From: Candidatus Alcyoniella australis | GTDB taxonomy: Bacteria; Lernaellota; Lernaellaia; JAVCCG01; Alcyoniellaceae | Assembly: GCA_030765605.1 (NCBI GenBank) | Contig: JAVCCG010000113.1 | Span: 16,966-80,965 of the forward strand | Length of the DNA stretch: 64,000 bases | Reading direction: 5' to 3' | Shown here: piece by piece, positions 1 through 18,142 of the stretch | How positions within the stretch are numbered: the stretch's first letter is position 1 | How the letters are laid out: every line of letters starts with the position of its first letter | Position numbers and translations under genes: made by a program | Notes under the pieces: generated by a model | Database searches by the model: none | What the model was told of the DNA's origin: nothing | The model's input: the letters and a program-made list of their open reading frames with translations, nothing else

Positions 1-429
1 CTGAATGAGCCGCCCTTTGGCGTTCGTAAGGACGAGGTGCTGTGGGTGATTGGCCCTGTATTCCGTACCGCGTTGATGGATTGGAGGACTTGGGACCAGC
101 AAAGCATGCCGCATCAATTTTGGAGAGCCTGGCACGCGAAATTCCTCGGCGAAGAGGCCATCTATGGTCTTGATATGCCATCTTGGTTGTTTGGAGTGCA
201 GGGATATCGCGTGGTATTTAATATCTTTACCAGGGATAGCCGGTATTGCATTCGGAATGTTGAACTCCCGCAAGCCTTAGATTCCGCGGTGGTCAACAAC
301 GGCCACGGCATGCTGTTCGTCGGAGAGCGTCGAGTCGACCTGTGCCGCTTTGAGCGATCCAATCTGCTGACCGTGTGCTGGGAATGGGTGAGCATGACAT
401 TCCTCCAAGGCCTTGCAGCGGTTGAGTAA
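1..429 (+). CDS. C-terminal part of a membrane-anchored propeller-like cargo protein (cut by window edge)
   Basis: The frame is open from base 1, so the 5' end lies outside the window; 142 codons are visible. The protein is not recognised as a known family. Its C-terminal half resembles the C-terminus of the 368-residue protein at 1343-2449: both have a W/R-x(3-5)-FLGE stretch followed by A-x-YGL, then a Cys-Ile start to a run of beta-strand-like sequence ending in an N/G-x-G-rich turn. I infer a paralogue of that protein, standing in the same position relative to a copy of the phage gene start at 732. Base composition is nearer the AT-rich cargo than the phage genes. Function unknown. Confidence 0.55.
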   Translation: MNEPPFGVRKDEVLWVIGPVFRTALMDWRTWDQQSMPHQFWRAWHAKFLGEEAIYGLDMPSWLFGVQGYRVVFNIFTRDSRYCIRNVELPQALDSAVVNNGHGMLFVGERRVDLCRFERSNLLTVCWEWVSMTFLQGLAAVE

Positions 430-591
430 TTTACAAAGTCCATCCAGATGATCAATTGATGGAACCACGAAGAATCGGCCCGAGCAGACAAATAAAGTAA
501 CGACAATGAAGCAGAATAAGATGATCAAGCTGCTGATAATACAACAATGAAGCAACGGCAAGTATATTCTCCCCATCAAGTAAAAGAATAC

Positions 592-620
592 TTGACAGCC
601 ATACGCGAAACTGCTAGTAT
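592..620 (+). promoter_or_regulatory. Sigma-70-like promoter in a 302-base gene-free stretch
   Basis: A perfect TTGACA -35 box (592-597), a 17-base spacer and TAGTAT (615-620, four of six matches). It lies in the AT-rich gap 430-731, which holds no other convincing gene, and would drive the truncated phage gene copy and cargo genes downstream. This is sequence matching only. Confidence 0.5.
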
Positions 621-731
621 TGAGCTACAATGAACAATGCTCTAAAGGCGGCAAGGTTCCCAGCCTGTCGCTGACTTCCTGTCCCCCTTCTCTCGAGAAT
701 AGTCATTACAGCCGACAACTCAGAGGCAATT

Positions 732-863
732 ATGGACAGTTCGGTCCCGCGCTTGATCTATGAGTCGTTGCAGGCGGCTGTGGCAACGGTCACCGAAGCC
801 AACGGCTACCACTATACGATCGGCGAGACGTTTCTGTCTGTAATTAGGAACCAGCACAACTGA
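732..863 (+). pseudogene. Truncated duplicate of the tail-terminator-like gene start
   Basis: ATG at 732 follows an AGAGG-type ribosome site. The first 35 codons match the start of the complete gene at 2540-2971 (shared PRLIYESLQ and TEANGYHYTIGE stretches), then the sequence diverges and stops at 861-863 after 43 residues. Nucleotide identity is nearly perfect over 753-835. The remaining three quarters of the gene are missing. It is a remnant left when cargo was inserted or when a segment was duplicated. It could be translated, but the product would lack most of the fold. Confidence 0.75.
753..835 (+). repeat. 83-bp direct repeat, copy 1
   Basis: Matches 2561-2643 with one difference seen by eye (base 774 G against 2582 A). 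It lies in the first codons of a phage gene. The two copies bracket a 1.7-kb cargo segment, so recombination between them would delete or circularise the cargo. Confidence 0.85.
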
Positions 864-875
864 AACGGTGATAGC

Positions 876-1310
876 ATGAACGTGGAATGGATAATCCAGA
901 TGGTCGTTAGGACCTCCATAGAGGATGAAGAACTGGCCCGCCTAATATAAACGTTAAAGGAGGAGTCTGATCCACTGGATTTCGAGTTTGCTGATTTGTG
1001 TGACAAATTTGAAGATGATAATGCCAAGCAAGATTGCTATGACACGAATAAAAGTATAGAAAATCAGTGTCGCGAGCTAATAGCAGCAGAGGACTTTTGT
1101 GATGACCGAACGTATGATTATCTTGCGCTGAGAATAGTTGAGATGTATTCTATATCAATACTCCTAAAAATTATAAAGCGTACCGGGGTGGAGCATATAA
1201 TAATTGAGTTGCTTAAAAAATATCATTGGACATTGCCTTCCAGTTTTAGTATTGTAGATGATATATATACATCTGAGCTCAATAAGATCTTGGCGGGTGA
1301 GGAGTATTAG
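876..1310 (+). pseudogene. Small acidic cargo protein interrupted by an in-frame TAA
   Basis: An ATG at 876 opens a frame that reads 24 codons, meets TAA at 948-950, then continues in the same frame for 119 codons to 1310 with no other stop. The sequence on both sides is acidic and helical in character, so it reads as one 144-codon gene with a single nonsense change. The downstream part could restart at TTG 996; a strong AAAGGAGG site at 957-964 precedes it but is about 31 bases away. The family is not recognised. It sits just upstream of the propeller-like gene at 1343 with 32 bases between, probably as a pair. An assembly or sequencing error at 948-950 is the alternative. Confidence 0.55.
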
Positions 1311-1342
1311 GATAAAACCATTATTGTAATAATGGAACAAGA

Positions 1343-2449
1343 ATGAAAAGCAAGAAGCTTCATGTTTTAACAGTAGCCATAATAGCAATAGTTGTTACAC
1401 CCATAATAATATTTTTTTTGCAAAGCCGGGTGCAATTAGAAATATTGGATTCGGTCGAGCTTGATCGCAAGGTGTTCCGTTCTCAATGCACTGATGAAGG
1501 ATGGTGTGTCATAGGAAGAGCAAAGCATTTCACTATATTTGGCATTGTCAACAATCGCCTGCAGCGTATATCTGAAATACTGCCTGAAGACTGTAAGTAT
1601 AGCATACCATCGGACTTTAACATCAGCCCTTCAAGGCAAAGAGTGCTTTACCGGTGCAAGGATGAAATTCTGTTTTTTAACAAAGACGGCATAGAAAACA
1701 GATTGGCAATCAGTGATGCAGACGTAGATTGGTATGATGAAGATAATTTAATCGTAATTTTAGGTAATACCGTATATCTGATGCCAATAGCACGGCCGGA
1801 ATCCAAAAAGCCGCTGGTCGGGCTGAGCATTGCGCTGGCAAAGATGATGTCGGAAGAACCGAACCTGATGATAGAGGTGGTGGCGACAAGCGAGGCTGTG
1901 TTGGTGATATACGGCCGTTTTAATGTTGCTCTTTGGCGGATAGCTGATGATGCTGTAATAACTAGGAAAATCCCTACGGTTTTCTGTCTGTATGAAATAC
2001 CGGGCAAGGTTTATTACCGAGACTACGAATTGAAATATCCTTTAGCAGGAGGGGAGATACTCGATATCTCCTCTGGACAAAAGGAAAGAGCCCCATTATA
2101 TAGGGCGATGTGGAGGGATGATTTTCTGGGCGAGCGAGCTGCATACGGGCTGACGCATCGGTGCAATTCTTTTCCGCGCAATCTATTTCCCAGCCCGATA
2201 AACGCAGAGCGCTTTTTAGAGCAATATTATAATGATCGCTATCTTGATATTTACCCTGATAGCGGCGGAGAATATAAATGCATCGAGGTTCAGCATCCTG
2301 ACTTTTTCTCGCTGGAGATCTTCGATGATGGGAATCACGTGTTGGCCATTGGAGGAAATACGGTCGTGCTTTATGAGATCGTAAAACGCAGTAGAATATA
2401 TATGTTTTGGCATCAGGCAATTGTGAAGCTCAAAGAATTTATTAACTGA
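1343..2449 (+). CDS. Membrane-anchored propeller-like cargo protein
   Basis: 368 residues. A Lys-rich N-terminus and one hydrophobic segment (about residues 8-27) predict a signal anchor with the rest outside the cytoplasm. The remainder is a series of short beta-strand-like repeats, for example a stretch ending in CKDEILFFNKDG and one ending in GNTVVLYEI, as in beta-propeller folds; this is a fold guess, not a match to a named family. The sequence is clearly more AT-rich than the phage genes and lies between the two copies of the 83-bp repeat, so it looks like inserted cargo. The protein at 1-429 is a probable paralogue. Function unknown; an immunity or exclusion role would be speculation. 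Confidence 0.6.
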   Translation: MKSKKLHVLTVAIIAIVVTPIIIFFLQSRVQLEILDSVELDRKVFRSQCTDEGWCVIGRAKHFTIFGIVNNRLQRISEILPEDCKYSIPSDFNISPSRQRVLYRCKDEILFFNKDGIENRLAISDADVDWYDEDNLIVILGNTVYLMPIARPESKKPLVGLSIALAKMMSEEPNLMIEVVATSEAVLVIYGRFNVALWRIADDAVITRKIPTVFCLYEIPGKVYYRDYELKYPLAGGEILDISSGQKERAPLYRAMWRDDFLGERAAYGLTHRCNSFPRNLFPSPINAERFLEQYYNDRYLDIYPDSGGEYKCIEVQHPDFFSLEIFDDGNHVLAIGGNTVVLYEIVKRSRIYMFWHQAIVKLKEFIN

Positions 2450-2539
2450 TAAACGACAAACGCCGCTAAATCCAGGAATAGTCTATAAAAGAACTATTTC
2501 TAATACATCGCGGCTGAACCCGAATTCACAGGATATAGC

Positions 2540-2971
2540 ATGAGCAGTTCAACTCCCAGGTTGATCTATGAGTCGTTGCAGACGGCTGTGGCAACGGTCA
2601 CCGAAGCCAACGGCTACCACTATACGATCGGCGAGACGTTTCTACATTGGCCCGACCCCGGGGAGATGGCCACCAAGGCCCCCTGCGCCAACGTGATCAC
2701 CAACGGACAGTCCATCGACAGCCAGGTGGGGGCCAACTCGCGGATCCAACTCGCCTGGCTGGTGACCGCCTGCATCAAGGTCGAAAACTCGCCCTCGACC
2801 GCGGCCCTTGACCTGGAGCAGGACCTGCGCAGCGCGCTGACGGCCGATGTGCGGCGTGGCGGCTCGGCCACGTTGACCACCATCAACTCCAGTATGCATT
2901 CCTACGGCACGGACCGCCGCGTGGTCTACGTGGTGCTCCAGGGAAGCTGCGTGTACCACGTGGGAGGGTGA
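2540..2971 (+). CDS. Phage tail-terminator / neck-like protein
   Basis: 143 residues, GC-rich like the other phage genes. The layout resembles small phage neck or tail-terminator proteins: an N-terminal helix, a central strand region, a stretch with A-LDLEQDLRSAL followed by a Gly-rich turn, and a final strand pair ending in CVYHV. No catalytic motif. It is followed after 4 bases by the TerS-like gene. Tail terminators normally sit between capsid and tail-tube genes, so its place upstream of the terminase is unusual. A truncated duplicate of its start lies at 732-863. The assignment rests on length and pattern only; another head-tail connector is possible. Confidence 0.45.
   Translation: MSSSTPRLIYESLQTAVATVTEANGYHYTIGETFLHWPDPGEMATKAPCANVITNGQSIDSQVGANSRIQLAWLVTACIKVENSPSTAALDLEQDLRSALTADVRRGGSATLTTINSSMHSYGTDRRVVYVVLQGSCVYHVGG
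2561..2643 (+). repeat. 83-bp direct repeat, copy 2
   Basis: Second copy of the segment at 753-835, here inside the intact phage gene. Similarity ends abruptly at 2643/835, marking a recombination junction. Confidence 0.85.
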
Positions 2972-2975
2972 TCCG

Positions 2976-3371
2976 ATGGCACAAGCGACAATCAAGGCTG
3001 ATCAGCCGTCGATCGCCAAGACCGTGTGCAGCCGGATTCTCGACCACCTCAGGCACGGCCTGACCGAGGAGGGGGCCTGCGGCAAGGCTGCGATCCCCTT
3101 TGAGGAGTATCAAAAATACAAAAACGCCGACCCCGCATTTCGCCGCGAGGTCGAGCTGGCGCAGTCAGCGTCCCGCGCCAACATCGAGCAGATGGTGATC
3201 GACAAGATCATGGAGGGCGACGCGCGCATGGCGCTCGACTATCTCAAGCGCCGCTACCCCAACCAGTGGGCCGGGCACGTGAAGCATGACAGCAAGCAAA
3301 GCGAAAACGAGCAAAGCGACCAAGTCATCGAAGTCACCCTCGGACCCGACCCGTACTATCAGCGGCACTAA
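2976..3371 (+). CDS. Phage terminase small-subunit-like protein
   Basis: 131 residues. The N-terminal third reads as a helix-turn-helix segment (ILDHLRHGLTEEGACGKAAI), followed by long charged helices with a YLKRRYPNQW stretch and an acidic C-terminus. TerS proteins pair a DNA-binding N-terminus with an oligomerising helical core and recognise the packaging site. The gene lies directly upstream of TerL and overlaps it by 86 bases in another frame, the usual TerS-TerL arrangement. The family call depends strongly on this neighbourhood. Confidence 0.6.
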   Translation: MAQATIKADQPSIAKTVCSRILDHLRHGLTEEGACGKAAIPFEEYQKYKNADPAFRREVELAQSASRANIEQMVIDKIMEGDARMALDYLKRRYPNQWAGHVKHDSKQSENEQSDQVIEVTLGPDPYYQRH

Positions 3372-4683
3372 ATCGCAGATCGCCCAGCGGCTGCTGGCAA
3401 ACCCGGCCGAATTTCTGCGATTTCTCTATCCGGAGCACGAGTTCCGGCCGTTTCACTGCCAATGGCTCGAGCTGGTCGCAAACAATCGGCTGACACTGAT
3501 CCTCGCGCCGCGCGGCCATGCCAAGACCACGGTGGTCACAATCTCGGAGATCGTGCGCAGGCTGCTGGCCGACCGCGATTGCCGGATATTGCTGGCGTCA
3601 AACACCCAGGATCAGGCCCGGGCGATCTATCGCACGGTGCGCGAGCTGCTGCAAAAGCAGATCACGCCCTGCGGGCTGTTCGGCGATCCAATCGAACGCT
3701 CCATAATCAACGAACTGTGGCTGACCAAGCGTAAAAAGATCCACAAGGAGGCGAGCCTCACTGCATTGGGCGTATTCGGCGCGCTAACGCTGCGCCATTT
3801 CGACCAGATCTTTGTGGACGATGCCCTGGACTTCGAGAACACTCGCAGCGCGACCCAGCGCAAGAAGTTCCGCGAGTGGGTGGGCATGACCCTGCTGCCG
3901 ACCCTTGAGCCCGGCGGGCACATCCACTGGGTGGGCACGCGCTATCACAACCAGGATTTCTACGGCGCGGAGCTGCTCGACCAGGCGCGCTACCCCACCC
4001 TGGTCTGGAACCAGGGCAGCCATCGCGCACTGCTCGAGGATGGCGGCGCATTGTGGCCCGAGCGCTTCTCGGTCCAGGAGCTGGAACAGATCAGGCAACA
4101 GGTCGGCTCGACGATCTTTGCCGCGCAATACCTCAACGACACCCAGTTTATGCGCGGCACGATCTTCCGTGAGCAGTGGTTTCGCTACTTTCACGAGCCA
4201 CCCCAGGACCCGGCGATCTACATCGGCTTTGACCCGGCGATCTCGCAATCCGAGCAGGCCGACTACTCGGCCCTGGCCGTGGTCGGACGCACAGGCCAGG
4301 ACCTGTACGTGCTCGAGGCCTACAAGGGGCGCTGGACCTTTGACGAACAGCTGCGGCTGTTGGCCCTGGCCGCGCAAAAATGGCGGCCGCTGACCATCGG
4401 CATCGAGGACGTGGCGTACCAGCGGGCTCTGATCGAGACCTGCCGAAACAACGGCTTGCCCGTTGTGGCCGTGCCCAGACGCACGGACAAGGTCTCACGG
4501 GCCTACGTGATGCAGGGGCTGTTCGAGTCCGGCAGGATCTACTTCCCGGCCGCGGGCCGACTGCACGAACTCGAGGCCGAGCTGACCGCGTTCCCCGAGG
4601 GCGAACACGACGACCTGTTCGACGCCCTGGAAACCGCGATCGGACAGGCGCAACGCCCCCATGTTGGGATAATTTTAATCTGA
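3286..4683 (+). CDS. Phage terminase large subunit
   Basis: 465 residues; the ATP-driven DNA-packaging motor and headful/site nuclease of tailed phages. The ATPase half has a Walker A motif APRGHAKT (about 74-81) and a Walker B segment QIFVDD (174-179). The C-terminal RNase-H-like nuclease has its first acidic residue in YIGFDPAIS (D316) and an HDDLFD motif (441-446). The start overlaps the TerS-like gene. The last seven codons (after QAQRP) fall in AT-rich sequence unlike the rest of the gene, so the native C-terminus seems to have been replaced where cargo begins. The catalytic residues are retained, so the protein may still be functional. Confidence 0.93.
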   Translation: MTASKAKTSKATKSSKSPSDPTRTISGTKSQIAQRLLANPAEFLRFLYPEHEFRPFHCQWLELVANNRLTLILAPRGHAKTTVVTISEIVRRLLADRDCRILLASNTQDQARAIYRTVRELLQKQITPCGLFGDPIERSIINELWLTKRKKIHKEASLTALGVFGALTLRHFDQIFVDDALDFENTRSATQRKKFREWVGMTLLPTLEPGGHIHWVGTRYHNQDFYGAELLDQARYPTLVWNQGSHRALLEDGGALWPERFSVQELEQIRQQVGSTIFAAQYLNDTQFMRGTIFREQWFRYFHEPPQDPAIYIGFDPAISQSEQADYSALAVVGRTGQDLYVLEAYKGRWTFDEQLRLLALAAQKWRPLTIGIEDVAYQRALIETCRNNGLPVVAVPRRTDKVSRAYVMQGLFESGRIYFPAAGRLHELEAELTAFPEGEHDDLFDALETAIGQAQRPHVGIILI

Positions 4684-4873
4684 TTTTTCGAAATGCCTTT
4701 ATTCAAAGTCTGGGCTTTATAAGTACGGCCTCTTTTGTTAACATCACAGTCTGTATGATGATAATAATACTGGCAGGTGGGCTTATTATAAAAAACTAGT
4801 TAGCACACCCTTTGGTAAGGCTTTAGCCATTGGGCAAGGAGTTTCTTTTTTTCTGCTTGTTTTTCTTCCACTT

Positions 4874-5239
4874 TTGGGGCGCGCAGTGCCGTTACTAGCA
4901 GAGCATGCAGGCCATTTGTTGTGGGCAATCCCCTTAGGCGCATTTTCGGTGTTTTTTCTGTTGTTACCTCTTGATAGGCCTTATAAAACATATCTTGATA
5001 TTGAAAATATCCTTACTATAGAAATTGGTTTATTAAAGAATCGAATTCAGAAAATCGAACATAATAGAAATGAGATGCAAAAGCAACTAGACGAATACGA
5101 CCCAGACGCAGCACGTTTGTTAATAAGAAGAAAAAGAGAAGAGGCTCATAATTGGGAGAATAGATTAAAAAGCGCTTCCAACGATGATAGTGAGATGTAC
5201 GAGCTGATCGCGGTGATGATGAATAAAATTGCTGCATGA
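4874..5239 (+). CDS. Cargo membrane protein with coiled-coil tail (start uncertain)
   Basis: The frame is open from 4742 but contains no ATG before 4874; TTG at 4874 is the first usual start codon, giving 121 residues. The sequence upstream of it (codons for an STPFGKAL stretch and a hydrophobic run) looks coding too, so the true N-terminus may be frameshifted or use another codon. The visible protein has a hydrophobic segment near residues 14-33, then a highly charged helical region (about 40-100) that looks like a coiled coil. AT-rich, between TerL and portal, overlapping the next gene by 4 bases (ATGA). Family not recognised. Confidence 0.45.
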   Translation: MGRAVPLLAEHAGHLLWAIPLGAFSVFFLLLPLDRPYKTYLDIENILTIEIGLLKNRIQKIEHNRNEMQKQLDEYDPDAARLLIRRKREEAHNWENRLKSASNDDSEMYELIAVMMNKIAA

Positions 5240-5664
5240 ATAATAGCGCACTTGTGAAACCCATGAAATGGCCGCTGGCTGTTCATTGTATTCTGTTATT
5301 TATTATCATCGGCGTACACTGCTACTTGCTGCATCCTGTAATTGCGCTAAGCGTGACAAGCTTTCTGGCAATGGTGATTTTCAGCTATCTGATGGTCAGC
5401 GATCCGAATCGGCGTGGAAGCGAAATTCTATTATTATTCGGATTGTACATGGTTGCTCAGTGTATTTGTCTGGCAGGCAACGGCTTTTTACTGCCCGTAA
5501 CTTCATTTGAACCCTCCATGGCGATTCATAGTGCTGAGGGAATGAGTAATCCGCCCATGGACTTCACACACTATTTGATCAGCCAGCTCGCCACATCGTA
5601 CATGATTTTCTCATGGGTGATCGTGTTGGTAATAGCGATTAAGTTGTATTCGAAACGTATATAG
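5236..5664 (+). CDS. Small polytopic membrane protein, cargo pair member 1
   Basis: 142 residues with about four hydrophobic segments (near 15-32, 34-52, 62-82 and 117-136) and little else, so an integral inner-membrane protein. It is homologous to the next gene: both share the order MKW, AVHC or AIHC, a HP-IAL stretch, a FSYLM stretch and a LFGLYM stretch. It overlaps the preceding coiled-coil gene by 4 bases, suggesting translational coupling. AT-rich compared with the terminase and portal genes on either side. Family and function not recognised; it could be a phage-exclusion membrane protein, but nothing in the sequence proves it. Confidence 0.6.
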   Translation: MNNSALVKPMKWPLAVHCILLFIIIGVHCYLLHPVIALSVTSFLAMVIFSYLMVSDPNRRGSEILLLFGLYMVAQCICLAGNGFLLPVTSFEPSMAIHSAEGMSNPPMDFTHYLISQLATSYMIFSWVIVLVIAIKLYSKRI

Positions 5665-5720
5665 AATCAGCGATGTCAAGGGTGCGATGCGGACGTTGCT
5701 AAGGAATTACGAGTAGCAGT

Positions 5721-6146
5721 ATGGGGAACAGCACAGTCGGGAAATCCATGAAGTGGCTCGTGGCAATTCATTGCATGCTGTTGTTTTCTATCACCGTTGC
5801 GGATTGCTACTACATGCATCCTATAATCGCTTTAATCGTAACTGCCCTGGCAGCGATGGTGCTTTTCAGTTACCTGATGATCAATGCTCCCGGCCGCACG
5901 AGAAACGAGATTATCGTGTTGTTCGGATTGTATATGGCAGCGCTTGTCATATACCTAATGGGCAGCGGTCTGCTGATGCCCGGGACCGTCTTGGAAACGG
6001 TTTTGGAACCACGCCATATTAGGAATCTGCATAATTCCGGGCCAATGCCCTATAGGATAAGCAGGCTCGTCACAGCCTACATGATGCTTTCGTGGCTGAT
6101 CGTGCTGGCAATCATCATCACCGCTTTGCGTCGGAAGCGCAGGTAA
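5721..6146 (+). CDS. Small polytopic membrane protein, cargo pair member 2
   Basis: 141 residues, diverged paralogue of the gene at 5236-5664 with the same four hydrophobic segments and the same conserved short motifs (IALIVTALAAMVLFSYLM region, LFGLYMA). The pair differs mainly in the loop before the last membrane segment. The C-terminus is basic (ALRRKRR), which favours a cytoplasmic end. It lies 79 bases before the portal gene. Duplication followed by divergence is clear from the sequence; the function is unknown. Confidence 0.6.
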   Translation: MGNSTVGKSMKWLVAIHCMLLFSITVADCYYMHPIIALIVTALAAMVLFSYLMINAPGRTRNEIIVLFGLYMAALVIYLMGSGLLMPGTVLETVLEPRHIRNLHNSGPMPYRISRLVTAYMMLSWLIVLAIIITALRRKRR

Positions 6147-6225
6147 GGATCGGAAAAAGCAACTGACGAGTCCCTTTGAATAATCCGCGTTAGACAGCTT
6201 TCCAAACAATCGAGAGGCAATTGCA

Positions 6226-7308
6226 GTGGGCAGAATACGCGACCTGTTCCGCAGGGCTGAGAAACGCCCTAATGACAAGTATTTCCGCGCAGCCGCGGCC
6301 GAGGTCTGGCCCTACGAGGTTCAGCACGGCCGGCCGCGTCCCGACGATTTGGCCCAGGGGCTCGAGACCTCGGCGGCCCACGTCTGGGTCTACGCCTGCA
6401 CCAATGCGGTGGCGCGTTGCGCCGCCCGGGTGCCGATCGAGATCCTCAAGCCCGCGGCGCCGCGGGGACAACAGGTCACCGCGCTGCCCAGCGACCCGGT
6501 GGCCCGGCCGTTCCTGGCGGTCAACGACTTTATGTCCCAGGCCGAACTGATCGAGCTGACCGTGCTGCATTTGCTGCTCACGGGCAACGCCTACTGGGAT
6601 ATCGAGCGCCAGACCGGCGAGATCTGGCCGTTGCGGCCCGATCGGGTGAGCGTGGTGCCGCACTCCACCGAGTTCGTCAGCGGCTACCTCTACCGCAACC
6701 GCGGGGTGACCGTACGCTTTGACGTGGACGAGGTGGTGCACTTCAAGCTGCCCAATCCCAGCGACCCGTGGTACGGCCTGGCGCCGCTACGCGCGGCGTT
6801 CGACTCGGTTCAGGCCGACCGCTACGCGATTTTGGGCAGCAAGCAGTTCCAGCAACACGGCGCGGTGCCCGCGGGCATCCTGACCGCGCCCCACGCCCTG
6901 GACAGCGAGCAGGTCGAACGCCTGCGCGGCGAGTGGAAGCGGCTCTATGGCGGTCCCAAGGGGCGCCAGCGCGTGGCCGTGCTCCAGGGCGGCATGGACT
7001 TCCGCACGATCAGCATCAGCGCCCGCGACGCCGAAGTGATCGCCCAGCGCAAGCTCAACCGCGAGGAGATCTGCGCGGTGTTCGGCGTGCCGCCGGCGGT
7101 TGTCGGCCTGTTCGAGTACGCTAACTACGCCAACGCCGATGTCCAGGAGCGGCTGTTCTGGCGCAACACCGTGATCCCCCACGTACGGCGCATTGCCCAG
7201 CGCCTCAACGAGTCCGACGTGCTGCCCCAGGGCTGGCACGCCGAGCCCGACCTGAGCGACCTGGCAACGCTGCTCAGCGATCAGCCGACGCAAGGCCGCT
7301 CCAACTAA
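6226..7308 (+). CDS. HK97-type phage portal protein
   Basis: 360 residues. GTG start preceded by an AGAGG site. Portals form the dodecameric ring at one capsid vertex through which DNA enters and to which the tail attaches. Diagnostic features: a NAYWDIER segment, an I-WPLRPDRVSV stretch, the VVHFKLPNP-D-WYGLAPLRAA region, and the C-terminal EEICAVFGVPPAVVG loop followed by Q-RLFW-NTVIPH. Length is a little below the usual 390-450 residues, mostly at the C-terminus. Followed after 17 bases by a chimeric ORF rather than directly by the protease. Confidence 0.92.
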   Translation: MGRIRDLFRRAEKRPNDKYFRAAAAEVWPYEVQHGRPRPDDLAQGLETSAAHVWVYACTNAVARCAARVPIEILKPAAPRGQQVTALPSDPVARPFLAVNDFMSQAELIELTVLHLLLTGNAYWDIERQTGEIWPLRPDRVSVVPHSTEFVSGYLYRNRGVTVRFDVDEVVHFKLPNPSDPWYGLAPLRAAFDSVQADRYAILGSKQFQQHGAVPAGILTAPHALDSEQVERLRGEWKRLYGGPKGRQRVAVLQGGMDFRTISISARDAEVIAQRKLNREEICAVFGVPPAVVGLFEYANYANADVQERLFWRNTVIPHVRRIAQRLNESDVLPQGWHAEPDLSDLATLLSDQPTQGRSN

Positions 7309-7325: not shown

Positions 7326-7775
7326 ATGTCTGACCTGAGCAAAATGATCCAAGAAGCGATCGGCGAGGCGCTCGACGAGATCCATCGAGAGATGGCGGCT
7401 GAGCAGTCACTTGCTAACACCGTGAAAGTGGTTAATGTCACTGATTTTGATTCTAAGCACTGGTGGAGGGGTGATAAGTGGTATCAAAGCAATATGTCGA
7501 TGGCGCAGCATGAGCAGCCTCTCATTGACAAGCTCTCTCCCACATTCTCAACGGATGACATGGAAAGGGCTTTTGCAATCGCAGATAGCCTGAGCAATCG
7601 TATAGTGGTAAAATATCCGCGTGCAACTTGGATTGTTCCAGGATGTGGTAATCTAGCAGGGGAACTCCAACGCATGCTGTATAAAGCCTTGACAAAGGCT
7701 GATCTCGTAGAAAACTGCAAGGCATATTATATAGAGGGGGCTTTAAAAATGTTTACCCGCATGCCTATGTCATAG
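7326..7775 (+). CDS. Chimeric ORF: phage-like N-terminus joined to AT-rich cargo
   Basis: 149 residues. The first 25 or so codons are GC-rich and read as a charged helix (DEIHREMAAEQ), like a small phage head-module protein. From about 7410 base composition drops and the rest is a different, soluble protein with a central GCGNLAGELQR stretch. I infer that cargo sequence was joined in frame to the start of a phage gene whose remainder has been lost, as with the truncated copy at 732. The RBS (GGGGAGG, 7313-7319) belongs to the phage part. Neither half is recognised as a family. Confidence 0.5.
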   Translation: MSDLSKMIQEAIGEALDEIHREMAAEQSLANTVKVVNVTDFDSKHWWRGDKWYQSNMSMAQHEQPLIDKLSPTFSTDDMERAFAIADSLSNRIVVKYPRATWIVPGCGNLAGELQRMLYKALTKADLVENCKAYYIEGALKMFTRMPMS

Positions 7776-7889
7776 TACAGAGTTATTATTGCGAAAGAGT
7801 GGAAGGGAAAACAGTGTGTTATGTTCGATATAGGCAGTACGACCCCTGGCTGGCGAGGGGACTTTTTTTAAGAAAGGCGATTAAAAAAG

Positions 7890-8315
7890 ATGTATATTAA
7901 ACATTTCCTCAGGTTTTCAGCGGGATTGATGATACTGTTCTTTTTCGTTTTTTTCTCTCTGATCGACTGGACGCTCGGACTTTTCTTTCTCGAAATAAGC
8001 GTTGCTTTGGTATTGGGGTGCTATCTCTATTTGCGAGCGGATGCTTACGCAAAGAGCCCGAGCAAATATCTCGTTGCGATGTTTATATATCATGCCTGTC
8101 TGGGGCTGATGGTGTTTTCTGTTTATCACCCGGTGTTGGGCGAGTACTTCATCGAAACGGTGATGGGGGAGCCAGCTAAATTGATGGTCTCGCTGTGGTA
8201 TGCGTTCGTCTTCGTCGTGTTAATTCAAGTGGTCAGTTTTATAATATGGCTGATCATTAAGTTTTTTCGCAAAACAGTAGGTATGATTGCTTCAAAACCA
8301 CGGGATGGAGAGTGA
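7890..8315 (+). CDS. Small polytopic membrane protein (cargo)
   Basis: 141 residues with four hydrophobic segments (about 8-27, 30-48, 64-82 and 105-130) and a short basic tail; predicted inner-membrane protein. ATG 7890 has an AGAAAGG site about 12 bases upstream. Start-region sequence recurs twice downstream: a diverged copy at 8342 and an exact 28-bp copy at 8439. It is AT-rich against the phage genes. Not homologous by eye to the 5236/5721 pair beyond general hydrophobicity. Function unknown. Confidence 0.55.
   Translation: MYIKHFLRFSAGLMILFFFVFFSLIDWTLGLFFLEISVALVLGCYLYLRADAYAKSPSKYLVAMFIYHACLGLMVFSVYHPVLGEYFIETVMGEPAKLMVSLWYAFVFVVLIQVVSFIIWLIIKFFRKTVGMIASKPRDGE
7902..7929 (+). repeat. 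28-bp direct repeat, copy 1
   Basis: Codons 5-14 of the membrane-protein gene at 7890. An exact copy is at 8439-8466. Confidence 0.85.
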
Positions 8316-8341
8316 CGCAAATCAGGTAGGAAAAAAGTGAT

Positions 8342-8599
8342 ATGCATATTAAGCATTTCCTGCGGATAAGCATCAGCCTGATCCTGCTGGGGATCATCAT
8401 TTGCGGATTCTTTTTAAAAGGTGACAATGTATATCCGCCATTTCCTCAGGTTTTCAGCGGGATTGAAGAACCGACTAGGACGCTGAAGCAAGTATTCAAA
8501 CGAAAACAAGCAAGCTACATTCATTCCAACAGGACAGTTGAGAACCATGCGAAACAAGATCTATTCCAGCGGCCGGGTGCGGGTGGTCGACGCGGATAA
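8342..8599 (+). pseudogene. Broken second copy of the membrane cargo gene
   Basis: The first 11 codons parallel the start of the gene at 7890 (IKHFLR shared). After one hydrophobic segment the frame enters the 28-bp repeat out of phase, loses any resemblance, and its last 50 bases merely overlap the prohead protease in another frame. The three remaining membrane segments are missing. I read it as the remnant of a tandem duplicate, truncated where the cargo joins the protease gene. Confidence 0.6.
8439..8466 (+). repeat. 28-bp direct repeat, copy 2
   Basis: Exact copy of 7902-7929, now in a different reading frame relative to the local start codon. It marks a past recombination between cargo gene starts. 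Confidence 0.85.
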
Positions 8600-9509
8600 C
8601 TTCGTCACCGAGCACGTGATCTCCACCGAGGACGTTGACCGGGACGGCGAGGTGGTGGTCTTCGACGACCTGGAGCGCGCCGCGCGCAATTTCGTCAACA
8701 ATCCGGTGGTGTTGTTTTTTCACAACGCCGATCCGGCCACGCCCAAGCTGCCCATCGGCCGCAACCTCGAGCTGCGGCGCGAGCAGGGCCGGGTGGTGGC
8801 CCGCACCCAGTTCGCGGTGCGCGAGGACCAGAGCGGGTTCACGCGCACGTTGTGGAACCTGCACGTGGGCGGCTATCTCAACGGCGTGTCCATCGGCTTC
8901 CGCCCCGAACGGGTCGAGGTCGTGGGCCAGGGCCGCGAGGCAGTGCGCGTGGTGCATGTGGACGAGCTGCTCGAGTACAGCCTGGTGCCGATCCCGGCCA
9001 ACCCCGAGGCGCTGACCTCCATGGCCAAGGCCCTGGCCGATCGCCGCCGGGTCCAGCTCGGCAAGCCCTCGGCCTATGTCACGGGCTTTGCCACTGCCGA
9101 CGCCGCCCTAAACGCCCTGAGCGGCGAGCGCGATCCTGGCCAGCCCGACGCCCAGCGCCGTGCAGTTCGACCTCGACGACGCGTCGGAGATCAGCGAGCA
9201 CGACCTGCTGCTGGTGCCGCTGTCCACGTTGCGGGCCGTGCGTGTGGACTCCAAAAACAGCGACACGCTGTGCATCAGCCCCGCGTTGCCCACAGCCCCG
9301 GCCGGAGGCGAGACCATCGCCGCGAGTCTGGTCTATCGGCTCAACACCCGACCGACCTCCTCGTTCACCATCACGCGTGCCGGCTCGTTTTTCTGCGAGT
9401 GGGCGGCGGGATGCTGGGTCGATTCGATCAGCCTCAGCGTATCCAGCGGCTCCGAGCCGCGACTCAAGCTCGCGGGCGGATACGCGGACAAGTCGTACGC
9501 ACACTCTGA
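8547..9509 (+). CDS. Prohead protease (HK97 family) with an out-of-frame tail
   Basis: ATG 8547 chosen over the upstream in-frame TTG at 8538, which lacks spacing for a ribosome site. Residues 1 to about 190 are a HK97-type maturation protease, which cuts the capsid scaffold: the catalytic His lies in VVLFFHN and the catalytic Ser in LNGVSIGF, followed by the YSLVPIPANPEA stretch. After about 9120 the frame reads through tail-tube coding sequence in the wrong phase, giving some 130 Arg/Pro-rich residues that look like an artefact. The native 3' end of the gene, and any capsid gene after it, are missing here. Confidence 0.8.
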   Translation: MRNKIYSSGRVRVVDADNFVTEHVISTEDVDRDGEVVVFDDLERAARNFVNNPVVLFFHNADPATPKLPIGRNLELRREQGRVVARTQFAVREDQSGFTRTLWNLHVGGYLNGVSIGFRPERVEVVGQGREAVRVVHVDELLEYSLVPIPANPEALTSMAKALADRRRVQLGKPSAYVTGFATADAALNALSGERDPGQPDAQRRAVRPRRRVGDQRARPAAGAAVHVAGRACGLQKQRHAVHQPRVAHSPGRRRDHRRESGLSAQHPTDLLVHHHACRLVFLRVGGGMLGRFDQPQRIQRLRAATQARGRIRGQVVRTL

Positions 9510-10191
9510 CGCGTTGAGCCAGACCGTGGGAACCACCGACGGGACCACGATCTACGTCGAGCACCCGTACAAGTTCCGCGCCGGCACGGACGTTCCGTGC
9601 TGGGTCCAGATCGACGACGAGGTGCTCAAGGTCACGGCGGTCGATCTTGATACCGGGGCGCTGAGCGTGGAGCGCGGAGTGCAGGGGAGCGTGGCTGCCA
9701 CCCACGAACTGGCCGTAGCGGTTGAGCCCTACACGCCGACTCCGACGCTGTCCGACGCGTCGCCGTCCAGCGGCCTACTGGGCAAGCTGCGCTACGCCGA
9801 CTCGACCTCGAGCGGCCTGGACCTCTACGCCACGCAGATTGAGATCGAACTCGAGAACAAGTGCAAGGCGATCAACGGCCCGTTCGGCACGGCCATCCCG
9901 CAGGGCTTTGTCAGCGGTGAGAAACGCGAGGTCAACGTGCGACTCGGGCTGTACCTGACCCAGGACCAGGCTGAGCAGTGGGGCGCGGCCTTCAGCCGTG
10001 CGGACGTCGAGGACGTGATGCTGCAAATCGGCGTCAGCGCCGGGTCGGTGCTGGCCGCCTGTGTGCCCAAGCTACATCTAAAGCCGGTCGACATCGGAAT
10101 CGAGGACGCCGAGGAGATCGTGGTCACCCTCGAGGGGCGCGCCCTGTGCGGCTCGGAGGGCAACGACGAACTGATCCTCGCTTTTCTTTAA
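9160..10191 (+). CDS. Phage tail tube protein-like
   Basis: 343 residues from GTG 9160; coding-like sequence of the same frame begins at about 9121 without a start codon, so the native N-terminus may be lost at the junction with the protease. The protein is beta-rich throughout. The C-terminal half has the pattern of tube proteins: a GLLGKLRYADS turn, a strand with IEIELENKCKAINGPFG, then IPQGFVSGEKREVNVRLGLYL. Tube proteins stack into the hollow tail shaft. It is followed after 10 bases, with an AAGGAGG site, by the tail assembly chaperone. The family is inferred from pattern and position. Confidence 0.6.
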   Translation: MQFDLDDASEISEHDLLLVPLSTLRAVRVDSKNSDTLCISPALPTAPAGGETIAASLVYRLNTRPTSSFTITRAGSFFCEWAAGCWVDSISLSVSSGSEPRLKLAGGYADKSYAHSDALSQTVGTTDGTTIYVEHPYKFRAGTDVPCWVQIDDEVLKVTAVDLDTGALSVERGVQGSVAATHELAVAVEPYTPTPTLSDASPSSGLLGKLRYADSTSSGLDLYATQIEIELENKCKAINGPFGTAIPQGFVSGEKREVNVRLGLYLTQDQAEQWGAAFSRADVEDVMLQIGVSAGSVLAACVPKLHLKPVDIGIEDAEEIVVTLEGRALCGSEGNDELILAFL

Positions 10192-10201
10192 GGAGGAAAA
10201 A

Positions 10202-10609
10202 ATGGAAATCAACGGACGCAAGGTGGGCGACGTGTTGACCTACGTGCCCGAGTACAACGGCAACCGCGGACTGAGCATGCACGACCGTGTGGAGGTCGAC
10301 CTGCTGCCGCTGTCCAACGCGGAGTTCGAGAATTTCGCCGCCCTGGCACTGCAACCCGACCCGACGCGCGGCAACGTAGCGGCCACTGGATTGCAACGCG
10401 ATCCAACCCGGCCGGTCAGATGCGTGCTGATCCAACGCGTAAGCGCGATCCGCAACCTGCGCTTTGGCGGCAGTCCGATTGTCAGCGGAGCAGATCTCGA
10501 ACGCCTGATGGACGATTATCGCTCCGAGGATCTGGCCGCGCTGATTCGCGAGATCGTGCAGGCCGCATCGGACGTCTCGACCCTGGAACAGGGCCTGCGA
10601 AAAAACTGA
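10202..10609 (+). CDS. Tail assembly chaperone, zero-frame product (G-like)
   Basis: 135 residues, start preceded by AAGGAGG. Mostly helical C-terminal half (LERLMDDYRSEDLAALIREIV). It lies between tail tube and tape measure, where tailed phages encode two chaperones from one start by -1 frameshifting; the products coat the tape measure during tail assembly. The last codons are CGA AAA AAC TGA, a perfect slippery heptamer right at the stop. The -1 frame stays open to 10989. Sequence similarity to lambda G is not visible; the call rests on position and the slip site. Confidence 0.7.
   Translation: MEINGRKVGDVLTYVPEYNGNRGLSMHDRVEVDLLPLSNAEFENFAALALQPDPTRGNVAATGLQRDPTRPVRCVLIQRVSAIRNLRFGGSPIVSGADLERLMDDYRSEDLAALIREIVQAASDVSTLEQGLRKN
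10600..10606 (+). promoter_or_regulatory. Programmed -1 ribosomal frameshift site
   Basis: A AAA AAC, read in the zero frame as xxA AAA AAC and followed at once by TGA (10607-10609). This fits the X XXY YYZ rule exactly. A slip moves ribosomes from the 10202 frame into the frame that stays open to 10989. No stimulatory structure was tested. Confidence 0.75.
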
Positions 10610-10989
10610 CCAGGCTCGCGGTCTTCCTTTGCGATCCGCGATCGCGTGAGTACGACTGCGAGCGTTGCAACGAGGAACTGCGGCGCGCGCGCAACTGCCT
10701 CGACGGCTTTGAGCCCGCGCCCCAGGTCTTTGGACCACGCGAGGCCAACCAGCGCGGCCTGGGGATCTTCACCCAGTGCCCGCGGGGGCTAATCCGTAGG
10801 CAGCCCGAGCTGCTGCATTTCTGGAACCTCTACTGCCGCTGCAGCACCCTCAAGGCGCTGCCCGGACCCGGCGGCCTCGACGATCAGGATGCGCGCACGA
10901 CTCAGGCGTTGATGGCGATATCCGAGACGCTGTGCACGCTGCAGCAGATAACCGCCGAGGCCGACTGGGCCAGAGCGAACCATAGGTGA
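10606..10989 (+). CDS. Tail assembly chaperone, -1 frame extension (T part of GT)
   Basis: 127 codons entered by the frameshift at 10600-10606; the fused product would have 262 residues. There is no good start codon or ribosome site for independent translation near its beginning. The segment has a cysteine-rich stretch (FLCDPRSREYDCERCNEEL) and two further Cys in FWNLYCRC. That is unusual for a GT extension but resembles small tail proteins with a metal-binding look. It ends 4 bases before the tape measure. Confidence 0.65.
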   Translation: MTRLAVFLCDPRSREYDCERCNEELRRARNCLDGFEPAPQVFGPREANQRGLGIFTQCPRGLIRRQPELLHFWNLYCRCSTLKALPGPGGLDDQDARTTQALMAISETLCTLQQITAEADWARANHR

Positions 10990-10993
10990 GAAC

Positions 10994-11926
10994 ATGGCGC
11001 AGACTATTGCCAAACAGATCGAGATCGAGATCCTCGCCAAGGACCGTACGCGCGGTCTGCTTTCGCGGATCAACGCACTGATGCTCACGGCCCAACGCCG
11101 GGCCCAAGAGCTGGGTCAGAGCGCGGGCAAGGCGGCCGAAACCCTCGGCGCGCTGGGCGCGGGCTTGGATGCCGCGGCTGTTCAGCGCTACGGCGAAGGG
11201 CTGGTACTGGCCCGTTCCGAGCTCGAGACGCTCGACCAGCGGGTGACCGCGTTGTACCAGAGTTCGCAGATTCAGTTCTCGCTGCTCAGCGAAACGGTCT
11301 ACAGCGTGGGCCGTTCTTTCGACGCGGTGGGCAACACGTTTATCTCGGGCTTTGCCGATACGCTGATCTACGGCAGCTGGGACGCCGAGCGCGCGCTCAA
11401 GGGGCTGGGGCGCACGATCCTCACTACGCTGCTCGGCGCCCTGAGCCAGTGGGCTGTCAAGCAGCTGGTGATCAAGAGCCTGGAGTCGGCACAGATCGCG
11501 CTGCTCGCCGTGGAGCAGGGACAGGTCGCTGCGCTGACCCTGTCGTACAATGCCCTGGCCGCGGCCAAGCTCATTGCGTTGGGGCCCGCCGGCCTACTGC
11601 TGCACGGTGGCGGCGCAGTGATGCACGAGGGTGGACCTGTGCGACGCGCACATTCCGGATTGCGCGCCGACGAAGTCGGGCCGTTCATTTTGCAGCGCGG
11701 CGAGTTCGTGATGCAGCGCAGCACGGTTCAGTCCATCGGCTCGCAGCGCATGGCATATATCAACCAGACCGGGCAGCTGCCGCAGTCCAGTCCGACCATC
11801 AACATCACGGTCAACGCCGGCCCGGGAAGCGACGGCCGCAGGATCGGCCGCGACCTTGCTGAAGAGCTGTCCTGGCAAAGCCGCACCGGTCGGTTGCAGC
11901 TCGACCGCCGGGCGATCAGGGGTTAA
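10994..11926 (+). CDS. Short tape-measure-like protein
   Basis: 310 residues. N-terminal helical and Ala-rich with a coiled-coil character, a central hydrophobic helical region (about 150-200), then the typical tape-measure C-terminus: HGGGAVMHEGGPV, DEVGPFILQRGEFVM and a Ser/Thr-rich end. Tape measures set tail length and pass through the tube; known examples run to 700-2000 residues, so this one is very short and would predict a short tail. Position after the chaperones and before the tail-tip proteins supports the call. The sequence shows no frameshift that would explain the length. Confidence 0.75.
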   Translation: MAQTIAKQIEIEILAKDRTRGLLSRINALMLTAQRRAQELGQSAGKAAETLGALGAGLDAAAVQRYGEGLVLARSELETLDQRVTALYQSSQIQFSLLSETVYSVGRSFDAVGNTFISGFADTLIYGSWDAERALKGLGRTILTTLLGALSQWAVKQLVIKSLESAQIALLAVEQGQVAALTLSYNALAAAKLIALGPAGLLLHGGGAVMHEGGPVRRAHSGLRADEVGPFILQRGEFVMQRSTVQSIGSQRMAYINQTGQLPQSSPTINITVNAGPGSDGRRIGRDLAEELSWQSRTGRLQLDRRAIRG

Positions 11927-11929
11927 AGC

Positions 11930-14900
11930 ATGTCTGTAAACGACCGCAAATGGACCGAGGCCAACGGGATCATCCCGGCTGGCTATTCGTCCGGCACCTG
12001 TCATCAAGTGCTCAAAGACAGCACCGACAGCAGCCTGTTCTATGCCTGCTACGGCGGCGCGGGGGGCGGGATTGTATCTATTGACTCGGACGCCGACTCG
12101 GACAATGGCGCGCAGATCGCCTATGCCGACCTGGCAAACGCCTGCGCCCTGACACAAGACGATGATTATCTATATATCGGTACTGGCGAAGCATCGGGCA
12201 CTGGAGTACATCGTATCGCCAAGAGTTACCTTGCCGTGGCGGGTCCGGGCGGCGAACAAACAGCACACCTCGCTGTGTTCCTTTCGACTAGCACGGGTGA
12301 GCCGATTTACTCAAATGAGATCGGCGTGCGCGGGCTGGCGTTCAACGATAATCTTGACCACCTGGCGATCAGTTGCGGGCGGCTGTCGATCTACGACATG
12401 GAGACGCCGGGAGCCGAAGCGGTCTACGACAGCAGCGCATATTCTCCAGCCAACGGCCCGGTGGTTGCGAGTGGTGACAAGGCGTGGTGGGTCTTTAACG
12501 GAGACCGGGGCAAGGTCTGCGCAATCGACTTGACCACGCCCGCTGCCGACGATTTCCGTCCGGACGAATGCCTAATCGATCCCAGTGACGACTTCGGCGA
12601 TGCGTCGTTAGATGCGGCCCGCTGGGCCTTATACACAGAGGGCAGCCCGTCCTCATATTCGGCGACAGAATCCGGCGGGGCGTTGACTCTCGCCCTCACC
12701 CATCGCAACAGCAGCGGGGACGACGTAATCGGAGTTGGGGGGCAGAGCTATTTAGGGGCAGCTGACTTCTCGGTTGCTGTGGACTTCGGAGCGTTGACCA
12801 CCAGCGCGATCGGAGCATCCGACCTGCGGTCGATCAACCTTTACGTCCGGATCTTTGATGCAACTTGGTCGGCAAACCTGACCGGCGTAATCAGGGCGCA
12901 CAAAAACCCAACGACCGAATGGGTCCAGGCAACGTTTTACCGCGGAGGGGCGCTGATATTTGACACGTCAATCAGCCCCGCGGCGTGGAGTGCCGGGGTC
13001 AAACTTTATATCGAGCGGGTAGGAACAATCGTAACATGCTCATACGACACCGGCGGCGGCAAGACTACGATCAACAGCAACACGCACGCTGACAACAACA
13101 ACTATGACCGGCTGTGGATCGGCGGAATATATGCGACAGACCGCGATTTAACAGCGCCATACGACTCTACCATCTCCATTCCCGTCAACGACGTGGCTGT
13201 GGTCACAACGGCTGGTTATGCCGCCCTTCCGACCGGAACGATCAACGACATCGCCTTTGCACCGGGCACCGGCACCGACATGCTGCTATTGGCGACCAAC
13301 GCCGGGCTGTACAAGGTGGACACTGACACAAGCTCCGCCTGGGGCAGCTACGAGGACCTGAGCGTTGAGACGTTCGGTCAGTCCGGCTCGGGCGCGGATC
13401 ACGAGATTCTGCACGGCGCGTCCGATGCGTGCGCCTGTTGCGACGTGGACAGCAGCGCCACGGGAAGCAACGGGAACACCTTCGTAGGCACCGACAAAGG
13501 CGTGTCTGTGATCGACCTGTCGGACGATACGCTGGTCGGCTGGTTCGACAGCTCGGGCGGCCAGTGGGCAGGCGATAGCATCTCGCAGTCGACCAATAAC
13601 GACGCCATCGCCTGCCTGTCGATTGCCAACAATTCCAACTCCAAATTTGCCTATGGCGGATCGTCCGGACTGATCACTCCGGACGTCGACGCGCCGGGCG
13701 AGCCACAGGCCTTCGGCTATCAGGGCGATGATACGGATTGCATCCACACGCGCTGGGACCAGGCCACTGACCCGGACGTGGACTGCTACGAGATCGAGCG
13801 CAGCGGCAACGACGACGAGGGTACGTGGTATCGACTCAAAGACGACTTCACGTGGGCCACGTCGGGCGATTACTTACAGATCGACGCCCAGGACGAGCTG
13901 TGCAGCCTGCGGATCACCGACCTGTCCACCGGCCGCTATAAGGTGCGAGTGCGGACGCGGGACTACGCCAACAACGCCGGGGACTGGACGACCTCGAGTT
14001 GGATTTACATTGGCGTTCCCAGCTCGCTGTCGATCTCGATTCTCTCGGGCTCGACCCGCACTACCACCCGCGCGGTTACGCTCACGGTCAGCGGCTACAG
14101 CCACGCCGACGCCGGGCCGATCGCCAACTACGGCATCGATCAAATTTCCTTAAGCGACGACGATACCAACTGGGACGAATGGCGCGAGTTCACCGCAGGC
14201 GACTCCAACGATTACGACTACAACCTGCCTGTTGGCGACGGCAAGAAGACCGTGTACGTCAAGGGCCGCGACGAGGCGCAAAACGAGTCCAACAGCTATA
14301 GCTCGAGCATCGTCCTGTCCGAGGCGGGCGCCGGCTCGCTTGGCAACTACGCGGACAATGTACTGCTGGCGCTTGAGGGTACGCACTTTGAGGGCGACAA
14401 CGCCACGCTGACCTCGGACTCCGAGGCCTCGGGCTACGAGGACGACAACGTGCTCAGCGACGCCCTGGGGCAGACCTGGCGCACGACCAACGGTTCGGGC
14501 GTCAAGTACCTGCGCTTCGACCTGGGTTCGGCCAAGACGATCCATGCTGTAGCGATCCTCGGGCACAACTTCCAGTCGTCGGGCATCACGGCGCTTGATC
14601 TGAAGCTCCAAGCCAACACCACCGACACCTGGCTGACGCCCGCGCTTGAGGTCGACCTATCGGACTATCGAGCCCTGGACCGCATCGTCTACGTCACCGG
14701 CGGCGAGACCTATCGCTACTGGCGCATTCGGATGTCCGCGACCGGGATCGTCGGCTACCTCGAGATCGGCCGGGTGGTGCTGACTTCAGCGTTCCAGCCC
14801 CTGTTCAACTTCGACGACAGCTACACCTACGATCTTACCGACCCCTCGCCGATCAGCCGCACCGAGGCCGGACACCGGCGCGGCAAGGTCCGCGACGTGC

Positions 14901-15145
14901 GGCGCGGCTATCATCTGGGCTGGAGCAAATCGATCATGACCCTGGCCGACCAGGAAACTCTCGAGGATGCCTACTGCCAGTGCGGCGTACTACGGCCCGT
15001 GCTGGTGATTCCCGATCCGAGCACCACGGCACGGGCCTGCGCAACGGGCGTCTACGGACATCTGAGCAGCCCGCTGAGCTTTCGGCGTAGCGGCCCGGAG
15101 GACTACGCAGGCCTGACCCTTGACGTTGAGGAGATCACCGGATGA
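11930..15145 (+). CDS. Multi-domain tail-tip adhesin with distal-tail-like C-terminus
   Basis: 1071 residues. Approximate order: propeller-like repeats (1-215), a LamG-like jelly-roll segment beginning DDFGDASLD (215-400), more propeller-like repeats (410-580), a fibronectin-III-like domain from about 585 (PGEPQAFGY, CYEIERS), an Ig-like segment, a discoidin (F5/8 C) type carbohydrate-binding domain (about 800-950; LRFDLGSAKTIHAVAILG), and a C-terminal segment like a phage distal tail protein (YHLGWSKSIMTLAD). The protein probably binds the host surface. It starts 4 bases after the tape measure and its stop overlaps the next ATG. Domain borders are by eye. Confidence 0.65.
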   Translation: MSVNDRKWTEANGIIPAGYSSGTCHQVLKDSTDSSLFYACYGGAGGGIVSIDSDADSDNGAQIAYADLANACALTQDDDYLYIGTGEASGTGVHRIAKSYLAVAGPGGEQTAHLAVFLSTSTGEPIYSNEIGVRGLAFNDNLDHLAISCGRLSIYDMETPGAEAVYDSSAYSPANGPVVASGDKAWWVFNGDRGKVCAIDLTTPAADDFRPDECLIDPSDDFGDASLDAARWALYTEGSPSSYSATESGGALTLALTHRNSSGDDVIGVGGQSYLGAADFSVAVDFGALTTSAIGASDLRSINLYVRIFDATWSANLTGVIRAHKNPTTEWVQATFYRGGALIFDTSISPAAWSAGVKLYIERVGTIVTCSYDTGGGKTTINSNTHADNNNYDRLWIGGIYATDRDLTAPYDSTISIPVNDVAVVTTAGYAALPTGTINDIAFAPGTGTDMLLLATNAGLYKVDTDTSSAWGSYEDLSVETFGQSGSGADHEILHGASDACACCDVDSSATGSNGNTFVGTDKGVSVIDLSDDTLVGWFDSSGGQWAGDSISQSTNNDAIACLSIANNSNSKFAYGGSSGLITPDVDAPGEPQAFGYQGDDTDCIHTRWDQATDPDVDCYEIERSGNDDEGTWYRLKDDFTWATSGDYLQIDAQDELCSLRITDLSTGRYKVRVRTRDYANNAGDWTTSSWIYIGVPSSLSISILSGSTRTTTRAVTLTVSGYSHADAGPIANYGIDQISLSDDDTNWDEWREFTAGDSNDYDYNLPVGDGKKTVYVKGRDEAQNESNSYSSSIVLSEAGAGSLGNYADNVLLALEGTHFEGDNATLTSDSEASGYEDDNVLSDALGQTWRTTNGSGVKYLRFDLGSAKTIHAVAILGHNFQSSGITALDLKLQANTTDTWLTPALEVDLSDYRALDRIVYVTGGETYRYWRIRMSATGIVGYLEIGRVVLTSAFQPLFNFDDSYTYDLTDPSPISRTEAGHRRGKVRDVRRGYHLGWSKSIMTLADQETLEDAYCQCGVLRPVLVIPDPSTTARACATGVYGHLSSPLSFRRSGPEDYAGLTLDVEEITG

Positions 15146-16929: not shown

Positions 16930-16995
16930 TCAACTGATTAGCAATACTTAATAGTTCGAGTTGTTAAGAATTCCTTAACTGCTCAGGAGCAAGCA

Positions 16996-17734: not shown

Positions 17735-18115
17735 TTGAAACATTTTTGGTTGATAGCGATCCTGGGGCTGATCTGCTGCATCGCAGCCTGCGCGCTGTCC
17801 GGCTCGGATGACGATGATGATGACACGGACGGCGGCGATGACGACGATGATACGGATGACGCGCTGGCCGGGGAGTGGTCGTGCGAAACGCTCCAAAACG
17901 GCAAAGAGTGGACGGCCCACGATTGGACGATAACCTTTGACGGCTGCGAGCCAGCGGGCTCAGTTCTGATATGTCAGACAGAGACGAACGACGGAGGTAC
18001 AGCTGTAAGGTTCTATCCGGGATATCACAACGCGGGACACGGCACACTTTCGTACATCTCGCTCCTGACTGACGTTCAAGGCGGACTGCTTTACCGCTGC
18101 ACCCGGGTAGATTGA
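17735..18115 (+). CDS. Lipoprotein with Asp-rich linker, pair member 1
   Basis: 126 residues. TTG start, chosen because a perfect AGGAGG lies 8 bases upstream. Signal peptide with a hydrophobic core and a lipobox-like AACALSGS, then an Asp-run linker (DDDDDDTDGGDDDDDT) and a compact beta domain with four cysteines (W-C-TLQNG, FDGC, LICQ, YRC). The next gene is a paralogue. The Asp linker is shared with chromosomal lipoproteins of this window (50343, 57881), so this is host-type sequence or an adapted moron gene inside the phage tail/lysis region. Function unknown; a receptor-masking or exclusion role would fit but is not shown. Confidence 0.75.
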   Translation: MKHFWLIAILGLICCIAACALSGSDDDDDDTDGGDDDDDTDDALAGEWSCETLQNGKEWTAHDWTITFDGCEPAGSVLICQTETNDGGTAVRFYPGYHNAGHGTLSYISLLTDVQGGLLYRCTRVD

Positions 18116-18142
18116 CGTCGATTACATAATGAGGAAGAGAGC

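Follow-up and report, generated by a model that had tools for sequence, protein, structure and literature searches.

A duplicated tail-gene start separates two diverged cargo units in a decaying prophage remnant

How does the start of a phage tail gene come to stand twice in a prophage, with AT-rich cargo genes between the two copies? We address this question in a prophage-bearing region of an uncultured bacterium. The stretch analyzed (the window, 64,000 nucleotides) covers positions 16966 to 80965 of an 81-kb contig (G000:C113; 80,965 bp) from a metagenome-derived genome of 4.29 Mb in 157 contigs, 98% complete, all of which was searched. The 16.9 kb of contig to the left of the window (L003) was examined for further cargo units. 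Feature coordinates are collected in Table 1.

The duplicated gene, here called T, directly precedes the terminase small subunit gene. A first-pass annotation, made from the letters alone, had reported an 83-bp direct repeat with one mismatch at 753–835 and 2561–2643, and the repeat is present as described, at a spacing of 1808 nt. Its mismatch lies in codon 15 of T (GCG/ACG), and the longest exact match between the copies runs for 61 nt from positions 775 and 2583. A count of all 30-mers returned no other repeat of at least 30 bp in the 80,965-bp contig, and the repeat is far above chance. Homology continues leftward to both start codons (732 and 2540), where 104 nt align at 90% identity with 10 of 104 positions different. 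The reading frame of the truncated copy A hits a stop shortly past 835; copy B is complete. A whole-genome search for the T start gave these two places only, the third match (E 0.39) being noise.

T had been labeled neck/tail-terminator-like, and structure comparison points weakly the same way. With a single-sequence model of T (pLDDT 57), phage neck and terminator chains rank first, at a best E of 5.8e-3 that is not strongly significant; the model weakly suggests a tail-terminator or neck-like protein. T itself gave no sequence match, and its relatives are absent from the phages, viral contigs, relative genomes and GTDB contigs searched.

The array reads unit 1, a T start of 35 codons, unit 2 and the complete T, each unit being a small gene for an acidic protein and a membrane-anchored propeller-like gene followed by a T start. 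Both proteins that had been placed between the T copies are there, a small protein (996–1310) and a membrane-anchored one (1343–2449, one N-terminal membrane segment), and the cargo is AT-rich as claimed: the unit 2 propeller-like gene has a GC content of 43%, against 61–68% in phage genes, and cargo GC3 of 0.36–0.62 differs from the 0.81–0.91 of core genes. An upstream paralogue of the propeller-like protein had also been noted. It is real (356 aa, 28–29% identical to that of unit 2), but stops some 300 nt short of the truncated T, not just upstream of it. Extending the search to the left, the check proposed beforehand, uncovered a complete unit 1, but no third unit upstream or elsewhere in the genome and no T start before unit 1. 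Unit 1 is instead preceded by intergenic DNA of the host, in which a terminator-like, GC-rich hairpin lies at L004:1646-1669, and by a host Asp-rich lipoprotein gene. The suggested serial insertion stands insofar as two units of cargo plus T start lie in series, the second seemingly a recent addition, but it amounts to one event only.

The two units are old homologues. Homology between their small genes spans the full frames (z 19.7) and extends through the 5′ stretches holding in-frame stops (z 10.4): TAA and TGA in unit 1 and TAA in unit 2, all near the 5′ ends and followed by long open frames. We considered recoding at these stops and ruled it out: the stop codons, TAA and TGA, do not fall at the same places in unit 1 and unit 2, which has the look of decay. 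Each small gene is by now probably a pseudogene. A sigma-70 promoter-like site, matched by consensus only, lies downstream of unit 1 and before T copy A, with a TG ahead of its second hexamer. Terminator-like sites do not exceed the number expected by chance, and the shared AGAGGCAATT ahead of T copy A and the portal gene is likewise within chance.

Table 1. Features of the cargo array and of the adjoining prophage remnant (window coordinates unless prefixed)
Feature	Coordinates	Strand	Details
Unit 1 small gene	about L003:15740-16327	+	partner of unit 1 propeller-like gene
Unit 1 propeller-like gene	L003:16324 (641 nt left of window) to window 429	+	356 aa; 1..429 is the 3′ part
Sigma-70 promoter-like site	592..620 (L004:3558-3586)	+	TTGACA, 17 nt, TAGTAT; consensus match only
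T copy A, truncated start	732..835	+	35 codons; codons 8–35 (753-835) are the 83-nt repeat
Unit 2 small gene	876..1310	+	frame from ATG 876, in-frame TAA 948-950; open from 996
Unit 2 propeller-like gene	1343..2449	+	368 aa, one N-terminal membrane segment
T copy B, complete gene	2540..2971	+	putative tail-terminator/neck-like, 143 aa; 83-nt repeat at 2561-2643
Terminase small subunit	2976..3371	+	phrog_4102
Terminase large subunit	3286..4683	+	phrog_38, PF17289
Second AT-rich cargo block	4684..6225	+	4874-5239, 5236-5664, 5721-6146
Portal protein	6226..7308	+	PF04860, phrog_2662
Third AT-rich cargo block	7326..8537	+	ORF 7326-7775, four-helix protein 7890-8315, two start fragments (8342, 8427)
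Prohead protease, N-terminal part only	8547..9060	+	PF04586, phrog_80
Tail genes of remnant	9160..16929	+	9160-10191 minor tail-like; 10994-11926; 11930-15145; 15142-16929

The two copies of the T start differ sharply along their length. Codons 1–7 disagree at 9 of 21 bases (MDSSVPR versus MSSSTPR), with synonymous changes in three of the five altered codons, while codons 8–35 differ by a single base. These synonymous differences point to two T alleles that diverged while functional. Given the nine changes in 21 bases, unit 2 probably brought with it the start of a diverged T allele, which now supplies codons 1–7 of the complete copy. The simplest account of codons 8–35, read from the contrast with those seven codons, is that both copies derive from one parent and that the boundary is a recombination scar within T.

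Since the units are so diverged while codons 8–35 of T are near-identical, a single recent tandem duplication cannot explain the array; we ruled it out, unit divergence and T identity being incompatible without gene conversion. Both would be accommodated if unequal crossing-over had long ago duplicated a unit in tandem together with its T start, the units had then drifted apart over a long time, and gene conversion had recently homogenized T codons 8–35. Gene order is the same in the two units, a T start follows each, and identity breaks off abruptly on the left at codon 7/8, where a conversion tract could have ended. However, a truncated T would not stay coding while the units diverged to 28%, and the synonymous differences in codons 1–7 suggest that both alleles were functional recently. 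Nor is there residual DNA similarity: neither unit 1 compared with unit 2 nor the gaps downstream of the units rise above shuffled controls. We regard old duplication as unlikely, if still worth weighing.

We favor, at a probability of roughly 0.5, the capture of unit 2 through recombination anchored in T, for which we infer a donor, an order of events and a mechanism. Unit 1 followed by T would already have been resident. At a later time the resident T would have recombined with incoming DNA from a related phage or prophage, DNA bearing the diverged unit 2 together with the beginning of that donor's T allele. The right-hand exchange would have been homologous, inside the first codons of T, keeping T intact, with its ribosome-binding site and codons 1–7 taken from the donor. 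On the left, an illegitimate join would have fallen at codon 35 of the resident copy, leaving the truncated T start behind and 83 bp duplicated. Joining by homology at one end and illegitimately at the other is established from laboratory crosses, as homology-facilitated illegitimate recombination (PMC3240628); one homologous and one non-homologous end would give the junctions observed here. Unlike in those crosses, the end product alone is seen, and it carries an 83-bp duplication. Against capture, the mosaic argument depends on seven codons, and a join at codon 35 that duplicates 83 bp needs a second T copy during the event. The ancestral and donor states are also unseen, as no relative with either unit or T was found among phages, viral contigs, relative genomes or GTDB contigs.

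The same junctions could also reflect site-specific integration: the segment from 836 to about 2643 would be a small element whose integrase, acting in trans, directs it to the T start, where it doubles an 83-bp attachment block and puts a T start of its own in place of the resident one. The geometry agrees, running from resident codons 1–7 and block through the element to new codons 1–7, block and the rest of T, with 83-bp direct repeats at both ends. Inside the block lies a perfect 6-bp inverted repeat (CGTTGC/GCAACG, 11-nt spacer, 766–788), and the lone mismatch of the 83-nt repeat falls in its spacer. That inverted repeat is short and was spotted after the fact, and its significance is doubtful; 83 bp is moreover long for an attachment block. 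The 1.7-kb segment and the contig hold no integrase, and none was recognized to act in trans: the only two tyrosine recombinases detected in the genome (PF00589) look like XerC and XerD, judged from sequence and neighbors. The other cargo blocks lack such repeats. An integrative element thus described seems to us quite improbable.

Misassembly or strain mixing, in which two alleles of the T region were joined via their shared 83 bp, deserves mention in a genome of 157 contigs, as the 61 identical bases are within the range of assembly word sizes. Yet a misjoin via the repeat cannot make the junction at 835/836 between the truncated T start and unit 2, which some molecule must carry. The T copies also have distinct neighbors on both sides and differ at the 10 positions given above. 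We consider an artifact very unlikely.

The array opens a decaying tailed-phage prophage remnant with three AT-rich moron-like cargo blocks. The region is a remnant because terminase, portal and tail genes persist while the protease is truncated and a PF05065 capsid gene is missing. A functional prophage would have a complete head module with a major capsid protein; here the protease frame is lost near 9060, a tail-like gene comes next, and no PF05065 match to an HK97-type capsid occurs anywhere in the genome, so that the prophage is apparently without a capsid gene of the searched type. Among the tail genes, the first has a phage family match and the others were assigned by position. The closest large terminases are at most 43% identical. 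Whereas about 28 related viral contigs have terminase and portal as near neighbors, in the remnant a 1.5-kb stretch of AT-rich cargo DNA splits the two, and a similar block splits portal from protease. The last codons of the terminase large subunit extend into the AT-rich DNA from about 4660. No duplicated core-gene starts were found around the second and third blocks.

In the second block, the 4874–5239 product has one membrane segment, and the two genes after it (5236–5664 and 5721–6146) encode paralogous four-helix membrane proteins that are 48% identical. A single family of four-helix proteins across blocks 2 and 3 was rejected, with pairwise scores at chance (z 0.2–0.6); a mixed profile (A3) recovers all three proteins by construction. 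The first ORF of the third block, between portal and protease, has 28 GC-rich, phage-like codons (GC3 0.71) and an AT-rich remainder (GC3 0.47), resembling a fusion of cargo to a phage gene start. The start of the four-helix gene at 7890 recurs just ahead of the protease as fragments at 8342–8384 (60%) and 8427–8469 (88%), further duplicated gene starts that here belong to a cargo gene. In the surrounding host DNA, several gene copies whose products are lipoprotein-like or secreted and contain long runs of Asp (DDDD) lie around the remnant (L003:13382-15560 and window 17735–18580). Farther left, two adjacent host genes at L003:4863-8317 hold three homologous domains (276-nt repeat, 65–74% identical), which may resemble formylglycine-generating-enzyme-type domains.

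Each propeller-like protein has one N-terminal membrane segment and no match in Pfam, NCBIfam or PADLOC; that of unit 2 has no PHROGs match either, and relatives were absent from 144 other genomes, GTDB contigs, viral contigs and phages. The structure search suggested at the outset returned nearly all WD40 or other beta-propeller matches, but at TM-scores near 0.2 and from a low-confidence model (mean pLDDT 48.5) with strands in repeated sets of three to four, which makes the propeller-like label weakly suggestive. Family searches gave no support for a toxin/immunity or known defense role. From membrane anchoring and position, the cargo most likely comprises envelope proteins made by the lysogen, and superinfection exclusion would be a tentative leading guess at function.

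Prophage morons offer the closest comparison. As in that group of lysogenic-conversion genes (reviewed in PMC6379469; the HK97 superinfection exclusion protein gp15 is one example), extra genes of other base composition lie among core late genes and encode small membrane or membrane-anchored products. The GC3 contrast fits, and so does insertion between genes that are adjacent in relatives for the terminase–portal block; units 1 and 2 have no T-bearing relative for that comparison. Unlike named morons, to none of which it is related in sequence, this locus carries one gene pair twice in succession, in diverged copies with a duplicated core-gene start in between, in a prophage that has decayed. 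The cargo is best filed as moron-like, of unrecognized families, with one informative recombination scar.

Orphan CdiA-CT/CdiI and Rhs-CT/RhsI arrays also line up variable gene pairs, each tied to a short conserved core-gene stretch (PMC3150448), and as there the conserved stretch could act as recombination homology. Here, in contrast, the stretch comes from the 5′ end of a phage tail gene, where those arrays have the 3′ side preceding a toxin domain, only two units are present, and no toxin or immunity family was recognized. With a tail gene start in place of a VENN- or DPxGL-type boundary and cargo lacking a family match in place of a toxin C-terminus, the locus is not a member of those arrays.

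A bolder idea is that the T start serves as a docking sequence for stacking diverse cassettes of small protein plus membrane propeller, each with its own T start, letting phages or lysogens build up and exchange surface proteins. We think this very doubtful. Serial insertion, as the first-pass annotation envisaged it, found no support as a general system: there are two units only, host DNA precedes unit 1, and the other blocks show no duplicated core starts. Nothing shows an active system, the array sitting in a decaying prophage with both small genes interrupted by stops, and a single case of this kind does not establish a cassette system. The propeller-like and four-helix membrane proteins belong to no recognized family. 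If capture through T is right, the locus would be a snapshot of multi-gene cargo entering a phage late operon, in which the cargo family is old, the join is recent, and homologous and non-homologous ends can still be recognized.
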